Part shown: piece by piece, positions 2,232 through 35,983 of the stretch | Position numbering within the stretch: position 1 is the stretch's first letter | How the letters are laid out: each line of letters begins with the position of its first letter | Assembly (NCBI RefSeq): GCF_001886815.1 | Contig: NZ_CP018099.1 | Coordinates: 2,974,501-3,038,500 of the forward strand | From: Caldithrix abyssi DSM 13497 | GTDB taxonomy: Bacteria > Calditrichota > Calditrichia > Calditrichales > Calditrichaceae | Direction: 5' to 3' | DNA length: 64,000 nucleotides | Position numbers and translations under genes: made by a program | The notes under the pieces: generated by a model | Seen by the model: the letters and a program-made list of their open reading frames with translations, nothing else | Databases searched by the model: none | What the model was told of the DNA's origin: nothing

Positions 2232-3128
2232 ATGCGCATTTTGGTTGCTGTTTTATTGGTGACGCTGGCTTTGAACGCCTGCCAGGTGGATCGCAAGAGT
2301 GTTGCTTCTGACAAACCGGCAAGCAATTCGCCCCTTAAAAAGGCAAAAATAAGTTTACCACAGTTAAACGAAATTTCCGGCATTGTTGCCAGTAAGCGGA
2401 ATAAAGATATCTTCTGGATTCATAACGACAGCGGAGACAAAGCACGGATTTTCGCCATCAACAGCGCCGGCGAATTGCGCCTGACCGTTGAATTGCAAAA
2501 CACAAAAGCTACAGACTGGGAGGATATTACGCTGGGCAAAGGCCCCCGGGCTGGGCTTGATTATATTTACATTGCCGATATTGGCGACAACCGCGCTCGA
2601 CGCGATGTAAAAACCATTTATCGTTTAATAGAACCCGATTTAAGCGCCCTGGGAGACAACCCGCTTGTAAAAATTGCCGATTATGATGCCATCCGATTTC
2701 GCTTTCCAGACGGTTCACGGGATGCCGAGACTTTGATGTCTGATCCATGGAACGGTGATTTGTACATCGTTAGCAAGCGGGAGAATCAGGTTGGCGTTTA
2801 CGTACTGCCCTATCCGCAAAAAACCGATCAAATTTTAACGGCTAACTTTTTGTTGAAACTTCCCGTTACGCAAATCACCGCCGGCGACATTTCACCAGAC
2901 GGCCGCCACATTGTACTTAAAAATTATGAACAAATCTTTTATTGGAAAAGGAGCAGGGAGCAAACTCTTTCGCAGGCAATGGAAAAGTTTCCCGCCTTTT
3001 TAAATTATGTGCCGGAACCGCAGGGCGAGGCCATCTGCTTTTCCGCACAGATGGATGGCTATTTTACCGTCAGTGAAATGGCCGACAGGAATTACACCGT
3101 TCTATATTTTTACCCCCATCGATTTTAA
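2232..3128 (+). CDS. Lipoprotein of unknown function, possibly beta-propeller
   Basis: The N-terminus is a lipoprotein signal peptide with lipobox LNAC (Cys near residue 17). The mature part opens with LPQLNEISGIVASKR, then IFWIHNDSGD, and later segments such as WNGDLYIVSKRENQVGVY and ITAGDISPDGRHIVLKNY, which look like repeated beta-blade strands with Asp-rich turns. This pattern is common in secreted propeller or phytase-esterase-like proteins, but no catalytic site is evident. An AAGG motif lies 6 nt before the ATG. It stands alone, divergent from the LpxL-like gene. Function not assigned. Confidence 0.75.
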   Translation: MRILVAVLLVTLALNACQVDRKSVASDKPASNSPLKKAKISLPQLNEISGIVASKRNKDIFWIHNDSGDKARIFAINSAGELRLTVELQNTKATDWEDITLGKGPRAGLDYIYIADIGDNRARRDVKTIYRLIEPDLSALGDNPLVKIADYDAIRFRFPDGSRDAETLMSDPWNGDLYIVSKRENQVGVYVLPYPQKTDQILTANFLLKLPVTQITAGDISPDGRHIVLKNYEQIFYWKRSREQTLSQAMEKFPAFLNYVPEPQGEAICFSAQMDGYFTVSEMADRNYTVLYFYPHRF

Positions 3129-3173
3129 TCTTTGTAAACTCTGGCTTTTAACGGCTCATTTTGGCCATGCAAC

Positions 3174-3220
3174 AAAAAAAGGCGCAAAAGGTTTTCCTGA
3201 AATTTCTCCCCTTTTGCGCC
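3174..3220 (-). terminator. Rho-independent terminator after the thioredoxin-like gene
   Basis: A perfect 10-bp stem, GGCGCAAAAG and CTTTTGCGCC, surrounds a 20-nt loop. Read on the minus strand it is followed by seven T residues, so it ends transcription coming from the dsbD/thioredoxin-like pair. On the plus strand the following sequence is not T-rich. Confidence 0.75.
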
Positions 3221-3266
3221 CATTATGCGCTTTATTTTTAAGTCAGCCTATTTCGCAATAGGTCTC

Positions 3267-3875
3267 TTACTTTTTATATTTCACCGAGCAACCGTAAGGT
3301 TTGGTCATAAACGGTTTAACGGGCTGGTTCTGCAGCATTTTGTCCAGTGTTTCGGACAGGTAATTCCGGGCGTTTTTCAGTGAACTCTGTTTAGAAGAAG
3401 GTTGGTCGTCGATGGCGCCGGCATAAACGAGGTTGCCGTCCGGATCAATGATAAACATGTGCGGCGTGGTTTTAGCGCCATACAACCGGCCCACGGTTCC
3501 CTCTTCGTCGATCAAATAAGCCGTGTAAAAGGCCCCTTTTTCCTTTTTTAATTCTCTGATCTTCTCCGGAGCATAATGTCCCTGCTTGCCTGGCGCAGAA
3601 GAACAAATCGAAATCCAGACAACGCCCTTTTCCGTGTATTTTTTCTGAAGCGCCTGCATCGTGCCGCTATTGTAAAATTTTTTAACAAAGGGGCAGCCGT
3701 AGTTTACCCACTCCAGCACCACAATCTTCCCCCGATAATCAGAGAGCTGGTGAGCCTTGCCCTCTGCATCTTTTAAAGTAAAATCCGGGGCAGGGGCGCC
3801 CAGCTTAATCTCTCCGGCCTGAGTAAACACAAAGGCCAATAAAATAAACGTTAACACACCGGACATCAGACGCAT
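3267..3875 (-). CDS. Secreted thioredoxin/peroxiredoxin-like protein (AhpC/TSA fold)
   Basis: A signal peptide (VLTFILLAFVFTQAG) is followed by a redoxin domain: LGAPAPDFTLKDAEGKAHQL, then VVLEWVNYGCPFVKKFY with a single peroxidatic-type Cys in place of a CxxC pair, and the cis-Pro strand TTPHMFIIDPDG. This matches periplasmic redoxin proteins annotated as thioredoxin family. The chosen ATG is the sixth codon of the longest frame because GAGGAG lies 7 nt upstream of it. It follows the DsbD gene on the same strand after 54 bp, so it is a plausible recipient of electrons delivered by DsbD. Confidence 0.85.
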   Translation of the reverse strand: MRLMSGVLTFILLAFVFTQAGEIKLGAPAPDFTLKDAEGKAHQLSDYRGKIVVLEWVNYGCPFVKKFYNSGTMQALQKKYTEKGVVWISICSSAPGKQGHYAPEKIRELKKEKGAFYTAYLIDEEGTVGRLYGAKTTPHMFIIDPDGNLVYAGAIDDQPSSKQSSLKNARNYLSETLDKMLQNQPVKPFMTKPYGCSVKYKK

Positions 3876-34263: not shown

Positions 34264-34310
34264 AAAAAAAGTAAGGGCTTACAGAATTTTATGATTTTCT
34301 GTAAGCCCTT
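34264..34310 (-). terminator. Rho-independent terminator of the tRNA operon
   Basis: A 14-bp perfect stem AAGGGCTTACAGAA/TTCTGTAAGCCCTT 10 nt after tRNA-Leu on the minus strand, followed by a run of seven T. Confidence 0.85.
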
Positions 34311-34320
34311 GATTTTATTG

Positions 34321-34407
34321 TGCCGAGGGCGGGACTTGAACCCGCACGCCCCAAAAGGGGCAAGGGATTTTAAGTCCCTTGTGTCTGCCAGTTCCACCAC
34401 CTCGGCA
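34321..34407 (-). tRNA. tRNA-Leu (UAA)
   Basis: Class II tRNA of 87 nt. Acceptor TGCCGAG/CTCGGCA, anticodon stem-loop AGGGA-CTTAAAA-TCCCT with anticodon TAA, long variable arm GCCCCTTTTGGGGC, and T-loop GTTCAAGTC region. CCA is not encoded. Last gene of the tRNA operon, before the terminator. Confidence 0.95.
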
Positions 34408-34446
34408 CTCTTAAACTCTCTATTTAAGCAACGATCGAATCCGAAT

Positions 34447-35223
34447 CTCAGCGGCGGGATTCGTCCCGCAATGGCGGGATTGCAGATCGCTTACTTAACA
34501 ACTTGCCCACATCGCCAGAAATCTTGTAAAAGAACAGTCACATGATTTAAATTTCGAGGCGACGGCCGGATTCGTCCCGCAATGGCGGGATTGCAGATCA
34601 CTTACTTAACAACTTGCGCACATCGCCAGAAATCTTGTAAAAGAACAATCAAATGATTTAAATTTCGAGGCGACGGCCGGATTCGTCCCGCAATGGCGGG
34701 ATTGCAGATCGCTTACTTAACAACTTGTGCACATCGCCAGAAATCTTGTAAAAGAACAATCAAATGATTTAAACTTCGAGGCGACGGCCGGATTCGTCCC
34801 GCAATGGCGGGATTGCAGATCACTTACTTAACAACTTACGCACATCGCCAGAAATCTTGTAAAAGAACAATCACATGATTTAAATTTCGAGGCGACGGCC
34901 GGATTCGTCCCGCAATGGCGGGATTGCAGATCCCTTACTTAACAACTTGCGCACATCGCCAGAAATCTTGTAAAAGAACATTCACATGATTTAAATTTCG
35001 AGGCGACGGCCGGATTCGTCCCGCAATGGCGGGATTGCAGATCCCTTACTTAACAACTTGCGCACATCGCCAGAAATCTTGTAAAAGAACAATCACATGA
35101 TTTAAATTTCGAGGCGACGGCCGGATTCGTCCCGCAATGGCGGGATTGCAGATCGCTTACTTAACAACTTGCGCACATCGCCAGAAATCTTGTAAAAGAA
35201 CAATCAAATGATTTAAACTTCGA
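34447..35223 (-). repeat. Seven tandem 111-bp units carrying tRNA-Cys-like sequences
   Basis: Exact 111-bp period; units begin at 34447, 34558, 34669, 34780, 34891, 35002 and 35113, and the true tRNA-Cys takes the next position at 35224. Each unit has a 70-nt tRNA-Cys-like part and a 41-nt spacer. On the minus strand the tRNA-like part keeps the acceptor ends (GGCGATG with CGTCGCC), CTGCA at the anticodon, and CGAATCCGGC, but loses the D-loop GG and the T-loop TTC, and gains a CCCGC-CATT-GCGGG hairpin. The spacer conserves a small AATCA/TGATT palindrome. Units differ at only a few positions. The leftmost has an eroded acceptor stem. The array lies inside the tRNA operon and should be transcribed. 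Confidence 0.9.
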
Positions 35224-35295
35224 GGCGACGGCCGGATTCGAACCGGCGAATCGAGGTTTTGCAGACCTCTCCCTTAGCCACTTGGGTACGTCGCC
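35224..35295 (-). tRNA. tRNA-Cys (GCA)
   Basis: 72 nt. Acceptor GGCGACG/CGTCGCC, D-stem CCC/GGG, anticodon stem-loop GAGGT-CTGCAAA-ACCTC giving GCA, T-arm GCCGG-TTCGAAT-CCGGC, discriminator T as usual for Cys. CCA is not encoded. It is the intact parent-like member of the tandem array downstream of it. Confidence 0.95.
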
Positions 35296-35328
35296 TTAAA
35301 AAAAAGCCCTTTCAGGCAAAAAAAATGA

Positions 35329-35400
35329 GCGAGAGACGGGACTCGAACCCGCGACCCCAACCTTGGCAAGGTTGTGCTCTACCAACTGAGCTACTCTCGC
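35329..35400 (-). tRNA. tRNA-Gly (GCC)
   Basis: 72 nt. Acceptor GCGAGAG/CTCTCGC, anticodon stem-loop CAACC-TTGCCAA-GGTTG with anticodon GCC, T-loop GGTTCGAGTCC. First tRNA of the operon, 21 nt after the promoter -10 box and 33 bp before tRNA-Cys. Confidence 0.95.
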
Positions 35401-35421: not shown

Positions 35422-35450
35422 ATTTTACCAAATCTTAAAATTCATGTCAA
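35422..35450 (-). promoter_or_regulatory. Sigma70-type promoter of the tRNA-Gly/Cys/Leu operon
   Basis: On the minus strand TTGACA (35445-35450) and TAAAAT (35422-35427) are separated by exactly 17 bp, with an A/T-rich upstream element. The -10 box ends 21 nt before tRNA-Gly, giving a short leader. Confidence 0.75.
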
Positions 35451-35593: not shown

Positions 35594-35599
35594 AATTAG

Positions 35600-35983
35600 T
35601 GGAGACGCCGGGAGTCGAACCCGGGTCCGGACATGGACCAGTATGAACTTCTACAACCATAGCTGGTTGTTTATTCTCGTCTGCTAACTGGCCAACCAGC
35701 TTGCCTGTTAGCAGACCAGCCCGGTTATGTTAGGTGTCGATGGCTTCCGGGCGACGCCATCTTCACCATCCACCCAAAAACGACGCTTACTTCACCCCCG
35801 GTGGATTGGAGGCGAAGCAGCGTGGCAGCGTTAATTAAGCTGCCAGTGCGTAATTATTGTTGGCATTTATTTTTGCCTGACCAGTTTTATCCCGATAACC
35901 GGGATCCCTTACGGGACGGGATGGTCAAAGCCCGGGTTGCAGTTCATACCCTTCTCATGCCCGTCGAATCCTGAATCGTCCCC
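35600..35983 (-). ncRNA. ssrA: tmRNA (transfer-messenger RNA)
   Basis: 384 nt. The 5' end GGGGACG pairs with CGTCTCC near the 3' end to form the alanyl-tRNA-like acceptor; GGTTCGACTCCC gives the T-arm. The tag frame (35835-35876) ends ...NNNYALAA followed by TAA, close to the usual ALAA degron; starting at GCA it would be AKINANNNYALAA, starting at GCC it would be ANNNYALAA. CCA is not encoded. Releases stalled ribosomes and tags the peptides for proteolysis. Confidence 0.95.

Follow-up and report, generated by a model that had tools for sequence, protein, structure and literature searches.

Repeats that carry pieces of tRNA genes are known from the E. coli tyrT operon, in which tandem rtT repeats of about 100–180 bp each contain a tRNA 3′ end; the units hold only about 19 nt of tRNA-Tyr and, to our knowledge, they have neither a palindrome replacement nor a GIY-YIG gene. 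Among GIY-YIG nucleases, I-TevI and SegB possess further parts for DNA binding beyond the catalytic domain.

PMC13096335 (with Brok-Volchanskaya 2008 as cited there) presents SegB as a free-standing GIY-YIG homing endonuclease of T-even phages. In phage T6, the segB gene adjoins tRNA genes and the enzyme cuts within them, with RAWTSGAAC as the enriched motif; SegB and recombination genes are both needed for tandem amplification of a tRNA-Tyr/segB segment (PMC13096335). For Caldithrix abyssi itself, the part of PMC5317091 that treats palindromes reports a motif, AACCGTTnnAACGGTT, that prefers intergenic sites. Here we describe a tandem array of broken tRNA-Cys copies in this bacterium, which we regard, with moderate confidence, as the amplified, ORF-less relic (or DNA footprint) of a GIY-YIG element associated with a tRNA gene.

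Architecture of the tRNA-Cys array

The window (the whole stretch of 64,000 nt that was analysed) comes from the 4.98-Mb, single-contig genome of C. abyssi and holds a tandem array at 34452–35240 (period 111, 7.1 copies, 97% matches, 0% indels, score 1473; TRF). The cluster lies on the minus strand in the order tmRNA, tRNA-Gly, tRNA-Cys, array, tRNA-Leu and strong terminator. Units 1–7 run along the tRNA strand from 35184 down to 34408, in the tRNA register; they end where the real tRNA-Cys, as register 0, starts. The features are as follows.

35599–35983, minus strand: tmRNA, first in the conserved tmRNA-Gly-Cys-Leu neighbourhood (ARAGORN, Rfam)
35422–35450, minus strand: promoter-like TTGACA-17-TAAAAT before tRNA-Gly (consensus match 11/12, a sequence match only)
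35327–35400, minus strand: tRNA-Gly (GCC), upstream in the cluster (ARAGORN)
35222–35295, minus strand: intact tRNA-Cys (GCA), array register 0 (ARAGORN; Rfam RF00005, 63.4 bits)
35074–35184, minus strand: unit 1, hairpin-broken tRNA-Cys copy with copied 3′ flank (TRF; tRNA model, 17.4 bits)
34963–35073, minus strand: unit 2, with GGGAT (TRF, tRNA model)
34852–34962, minus strand: unit 3, with GGGAT (TRF, tRNA model)
34741–34851, minus strand: unit 4 (TRF)
34630–34740, minus strand: unit 5 (TRF; 20.5 bits as tRNA)
34519–34629, minus strand: unit 6 (TRF)
34408–34518, minus strand: unit 7, distal, 3′ end diverged below about 34452 (TRF)
35130–35145, minus strand: palindrome TCCCGCCATTGCGGGA of unit 1 (genome pattern search)
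35019–35034, 34908–34923, 34797–34812, 34686–34701, 34575–34590 and 34464–34479, minus strand: palindrome TCCCGCCATTGCGGGA of units 2–7 (genome pattern search)
34320–34406, minus strand: tRNA-Leu (TAA), downstream of the array (ARAGORN)
34264–34310, minus strand: intrinsic terminator after tRNA-Leu, 14-bp stem and T run (fold −23 kcal/mol, z −7.8)

The tmRNA measures 385 nt here, 352–357 nt in several relatives and 379–386 nt in others; its stretch TCCCGATAACCGGGATCCCTTACGGGACGGGA (around 35880–35925) resembles the palindromes of the tRNA copies.

In all units, TCCCGCCATTGCGGGA stands between CTGCAA and CGAATCC and replaces 18 nt of tRNA-Cys, from the 3′ anticodon strand to the T-loop. The 5′ 37 nt of the unit match tRNA-Cys at 28 positions, and from CGAATCC through the spacer 52 of 54 positions are identical to the real tRNA-Cys and its 3′ flank. 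An earlier note on this DNA had described tandem units of a decayed tRNA-Cys, which is correct. The seven units at an exact 111-bp period, their location between tRNA-Cys and tRNA-Leu with the real gene in the next register, the acceptor-pairing ends, CGAATCCGGC and CTGCA, the loss of the D-loop GG and T-loop GTT and the presence of a CCCGC/GCGGG hairpin were all borne out; the hairpin is a substitution, with 18 nt of the tRNA missing.

Other details of that description needed amending. The AATCA/TGATT motif of the spacers is present but is simply the copied 3′ flank of the real tRNA-Cys. GGGAT is carried by units 2 and 3, but the ATCCC with which it was said to restore an anticodon stem belongs to the palindrome TCCCGCC..GCGGGA, which the predicted unit fold pairs in place of that stem; a restored stem was rejected because its pairing bases are palindrome bases. 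Whole tRNA-like units are limited to units 1–6, in which the 7-bp acceptor ends (GGCGATG/CGTCGCC, one U-G pair) pair, and the distal unit 7 has lost the 3′ acceptor strand and the spacer. Variation among units 1–6 is confined to six columns, so that amplification or homogenization appears to be recent.

Judging from the sequence, it is plausible that the array is co-transcribed with the tRNA cluster. The terminator mentioned in the note was found and is strong, and a promoter-like site was found as well, although the promoter scan as a whole did no better than chance (4 sites versus 3.0). This setting, the paired acceptor ends of units 1–6 and the stable predicted fold of unit 1 (z −2.9) would suit seven units that share the operon transcript and are processed to tRNA-like RNAs serving as decoys or mimics. 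The fold of unit 1, however, uses the palindrome and not the cloverleaf, and one unit variant folds otherwise, the tRNA-Cys fold being lost. When the units were scored against RF00005, as the note had proposed, they gave 17–20 bits or no match (gathering score 29; real gene 63.4) and failed as functional tRNA-Cys with all arms. A comparison among relatives, also proposed there, showed that the acceptor ends, copy number and presence of the units all vary, and arrays at other loci contain tRNA pieces only. RNase decoys, Cys-tRNA mimics and small RNAs are thus unsupported and were rejected as the best reading, given that ends, number and presence are unconserved; we consider such RNAs very improbable. 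The array units are probably neither tRNAs nor RNA genes.

Broken tRNA copies in relatives and elsewhere in the genome

When one array unit was used to search the phylum, other genomes proved to carry hairpin-broken copies of tRNA-Cys at this tmRNA-Gly-Cys-Leu site as well. In L010, L013–L016 and L149 (the last from another family of the class), a GIY-YIG ORF (PF01541; typically ~82 aa, range about 80–90 aa) and then a hairpin-broken 3′ part of tRNA-Cys lie between tRNA-Cys and tRNA-Leu; for L013, only the element end is visible, at a contig end. The ORF starts no more than about 15 nt past the 3′ end of tRNA-Cys (L010, L014, L015, L016 and L149) and is doubled in tandem in L010 and L016, and a second copy in L014 begins at the contig end. 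Five genomes (L012, L142–L145) have empty sites, with a Cys–Leu gap of about 12–20 nt, no copies and no ORF. L012 shares its genus with the occupied L010 and L014, and the presence of empty and occupied sites within one genus is compatible with homing. The 13 readable Calditrichota loci comprised six with copies and ORF, two with copies only (C. abyssi itself and one congener), five with neither and none with the ORF only (Fisher p 0.021, from small numbers of related genomes). Given that neither an ORF nor an ORF remnant was found at the array locus in the window, the link of the array to a GIY-YIG element rests on these relatives.

In L010, L014, L015, L016, L052, L079 and L087, the ORF starts about 1–11 nt past the tRNA 3′ end, so close that the 5′ end of its mRNA would come from tRNA 3′ processing and be nearly leaderless. 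The tRNA-Gly adjoining tRNA-Cys also appears to be hit: upstream of tRNA-Cys, L009 (same genus) has a broken tRNA-Gly copy with two palindromes (anticodon region and T-loop), and a partial tRNA-Gly copy in L092 bears a single palindrome.

We inspected the surroundings of all 43 tRNA genes that the tRNA model identified in C. abyssi. Repeated partial copies of the neighbouring tRNA occur at seven loci (Cys, Ser-CGA, Ser-TGA, Ser-GCT, Asn, Glu-UUC and Glu-CUC), with arrays of 113 bp × 8.2 at Ser-CGA, 104 bp × 5.3 upstream and 199 bp × 2.3 downstream at Ser-TGA, 88 bp × 4.2 at Asn and 286 bp × 2.2 at Glu-CUC, and six copies downstream of Glu-UUC; apart from a 15-nt match beside a tRNA-Lys, the remaining tRNA clusters (about 20) had no copies. 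At loci other than the Cys array, copies that lie upstream of the tRNA mostly retain its 5′ part and those that lie downstream its 3′ part, each interrupted by at least one palindrome. The genome has six standalone GIY-YIG genes. Two are of the tRNA-side type, an intact gene at the Ser-CGA array and a pseudogene at the Asn array. At 598657–599957 (L053), two near-identical UPF0213-like GIY-YIG genes lie about 1.1 kb apart with no tRNA nearby.

These copies bear on the att-like site that the note had offered as an option. A scar of an integrating element that used the tRNA-Cys 3′ end would account for CGAATCCGGCCGTCGCCTC, the 19 nt of that end that recur in units 1–6; tRNA genes are frequent att sites, and copies of tRNA 3′ ends do feature here. 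However, no integrase was noticed among the ORFs listed around the locus, the repeats are whole damaged tRNAs with internal replacements, and many other copies are 5′ parts that lie upstream of the tRNA. The att scar was rejected on these grounds and is scarcely credible.

The palindrome is present in the copies at a tRNA-specific point, and the intact tRNA beside the ORF is uninterrupted. Copies of tRNA-Cys are broken after nt 37, three bases past the first anticodon base, where both sides align cleanly (less so in the L100 copy), and lack 18 nt (19 in one L010 copy, 17 in a patescibacterial genome). This break position is common to Calditrichota, Ignavibacteria and Patescibacteria, although the sequence of the palindrome varies (CCCGCCTTTGGCGGG and CCCCGAAAATTTATTTCGGGG are two examples). 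In several genomes, a palindrome takes the exact place of the 17-nt anticodon arm in copies of tRNA-Val, tRNA-Glu and tRNA-Pro, Asn copies from two families have lost the identical 10 nt, Thr copies from two families are interrupted at one shared T-arm base, and the Glu-UUC, Glu-CUC and Ser-TGA copies of C. abyssi are broken between GTTC and GA of the T-loop. Palindrome positions for Ser-CGA and Glu-UUC differ among genomes, and a few Cys copies (for example, in L149) have a second palindrome in the D-arm.

At 1728284–1730309, 1758874–1759914 and 1974574–1977024 of the genome, many regularly spaced palindromes of the CCCGCTTTCGCGGG / CCCGCTTGCGCGGG type were observed; they are unrelated to tRNAs and are possibly coding repeats.

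GIY-YIG ORFs beside tRNA genes

GIY-YIG domains were collected regardless of tRNAs, from the best matches of a PF01541 search (40 phylum genomes), a GTDB scan with four Cys-type proteins and one viral match. In a first set of 85 distinct standalone domains, 46 had a tRNA within 500 nt, 26 clearly had none and 13 were at contig ends (46/72 assessable); the scan also led to 17 genomes of other groups, where 34 of 53 further assessable domains were equally close to a tRNA. Combined, 80 of 125 assessable ORFs lie at most 500 nt from a tRNA, and every one of the 80 is on the strand of that tRNA. Partial copies of the neighbouring tRNA were detected by BLAST beside 64 of them (40/46 and 24/34). According to their record titles, the hosts belong to Calditrichota, Ignavibacteria, Acidobacteria, Patescibacteria and Omnitrophota, and more than a dozen other tRNA species are represented despite the Cys-type query, which biases the scan toward tRNA-Cys loci. 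Viral contigs yielded one clear case (L091), and the phage collection contained distant GIY-YIG relatives only (about 41–46% identity). In L106 (Candidatus Spechtbacteria), tRNA-Ile and tRNA-Ala flank a pair of GIY-YIG ORFs at 2842–3704, with a partial tRNA-Ala between the ORFs; this order of the two tRNAs is typical of rRNA operons.

The tRNA-side ORFs encode about 80–85 aa and consist of the catalytic domain only, which is present in the elements of relatives and at Ser-CGA of C. abyssi; they lack a separate DNA-binding part for site specificity. PF01541 was assigned in seven of seven tested ORFs, and Y8, Y19, G21, R29, H33 and E65 are invariant. The ORFs are under purifying selection, with dN/dS values of 0.06, 0.07 and 0.21 for pairs in which synonymous sites are unsaturated. 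On a tree of 72 domains, which is built on few alignment columns and leaves many forks open, location beside a tRNA changes 4 times, compared with 21.6 when the labels are shuffled (0/500). Of the 26 domains that have no tRNA close by, 22 fall together on a UPF0213-like branch of their own, which contains no tRNA-side member. The subclades tend to track tRNA species, and Ser-CGA, Asn, Thr, Val and Glu elements from different families group together.

The array could also be inert debris of unequal crossover: a second tRNA-Cys decayed, gained a dispersed palindrome and was multiplied by slippage at a site prone to recombination, where the GIY-YIG genes seen in relatives would be passengers with no connection to the copies. 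The six variable columns in six units fit a single recent amplification or homogenization, short palindromes are frequent in the genome (42 TCCCGA..TCGGGA versus 1 control) and the array locus has no ORF. Debris alone seems unlikely in the face of seven array-bearing tRNA loci in one genome, an identical tRNA-Cys breakpoint in three phyla with differing palindromes, and ORFs that without exception follow the tRNA strand and mostly have copies beside them; crossover debris, as the earlier note had it, nevertheless forms part of the answer. Alternatively, the palindromes themselves may be mobile (REP-like) and tolerated only in dead tRNA copies, the GIY-YIG ORFs acting in trans or riding along. 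Several palindrome families are dispersed through the C. abyssi genome, and one 18-mer, TGCGCAGCATCCTGTGGA, is shared by the Ser-TGA and Glu-CUC copies, in which it sits at an identical point of the T-loop, and is found nowhere else. Yet copies co-occur with the tRNA-side nuclease clade far above chance, and several palindromes take the place of stretches particular to the tRNA (the 17-nt anticodon arm in copies of tRNA-Val, tRNA-Glu and tRNA-Pro, for example) instead of inserting at arbitrary points; we regard mobile palindromes as a quite improbable source.

A proposed tRNA-gene-associated element and its closest precedents

In the reading that we prefer, an element consists of one GIY-YIG ORF of about 80 aa, close to a tRNA gene and on the same strand, together with a partial copy of that tRNA into which a short palindrome has been set, either as an interruption or in place of some of the tRNA. 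The nuclease would cut at or near the tRNA gene, its putative target, and the break would be repaired by homologous recombination between tRNA segments, as in phage SegB; such repair would spread the element into empty alleles and also yield tandem copies. Persisting copies, dead as tRNAs with a palindrome at a point characteristic of the tRNA species (as observed for several of these), would probably no longer be cleavable, and the intact tRNA would be retained because the cell needs it. At the C. abyssi tRNA-Cys, we take the absence of the ORF as loss, after which the pseudo-copy would have been amplified to seven near-identical units. The array would work at the DNA level, with no RNA product required.

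The joint occurrence of ORF and broken copy in relatives, the clean empty sites, the seven array loci (two of them with the tRNA-side GIY-YIG genes of C. abyssi), the strand rule, the frequency of copies, the clustering in the tree, the selection on the ORFs, the tRNA-Cys break position shared by three phyla and the SegB precedent all argue for this element. Against it stand the restriction of the ORFs to a catalytic domain, their profile similarity to UPF0213 and SLX1, the missing ORF at the array locus, the shifting palindrome positions at Ser-CGA and Glu-UUC, the second D-arm palindrome of a few Cys copies and the few columns and open forks of the tree. The missing DNA-binding part and the likeness to UPF0213 and SLX1 speak against a simple homing model, so the same outcome might instead be reached if the nuclease recognized cruciform tRNA DNA by its structure and cut it. 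More tentatively, we propose that there may be a widespread class of minimal mobile elements (about 300 bp: a GIY-YIG catalytic ORF and a palindrome-broken piece of the target tRNA) that reside in tRNA genes, use the cutting of these genes to spread or diversify, mark copies at tRNA-specific points and leave arrays.

By itself the array would be a curiosity, and its interest lies in its class: an odd repeat becomes one instance of tRNA genes serving as home to tiny nuclease elements, a pattern that recurs in at least five bacterial groups. If the proposal is true, the elements would rank with the smallest of the homing-like kind known from bacterial chromosomes, broken tRNA copies and tRNA-side repeats would have an explanation, and the cutting and amplification of tRNA genes, recently demonstrated for a GIY-YIG enzyme of a phage, would take place on chromosomes too. 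The class is directly testable, as the tRNA gene next to each nuclease is the predicted target of that nuclease. We found no earlier description of tRNA-side GIY-YIG genes with broken tRNAs in the literature searched, in which subscription journals were barely covered, and the class appears to be undescribed in the searchable literature.

Compared with known systems, the array shares with REP and other small dispersed palindromes the presence of short palindromes dispersed in the same genome; AACCGTTnnAACGGTT is a different sequence from the array palindromes, and the section of PMC5317091 that describes it makes no reference to tRNA copies. Similar to the rtT repeats, the array consists of tandem repeats in a tRNA operon that carry a tRNA 3′ end (19 nt, units 1–6), but the remainder of the unit is tRNA-related, unlike that of rtT. 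The tRNA-side ORFs have the same catalytic domain as UPF0213 and SLX1-like proteins (best solved-structure matches 1zg2, 1ywl and SLX1) and are by profile nearer to UPF0213 and the structure-selective SLX1 than to I-TevI, whereas the UPF0213-like clades in the genomes examined do not adjoin tRNAs. The closest precedent, in our analysis, is SegB: again a GIY-YIG gene lies beside tRNA genes, and its product drives the amplification, in tandem and through homologous recombination, of a segment with a tRNA. SegB is a longer, phage-borne protein for which cleavage has been demonstrated, its amplified units contain intact tRNA, and palindromes or broken tRNA copies have not been reported for it; the elements described here are chromosomal, with broken copies, and their cleavage activity is putative. 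The two also meet at one site by our own comparison, which is not made in PMC13096335: RAWTSGAAC is the complement of the T-loop GTTCSAWTY, the palindrome site at four to five of the loci mapped here.
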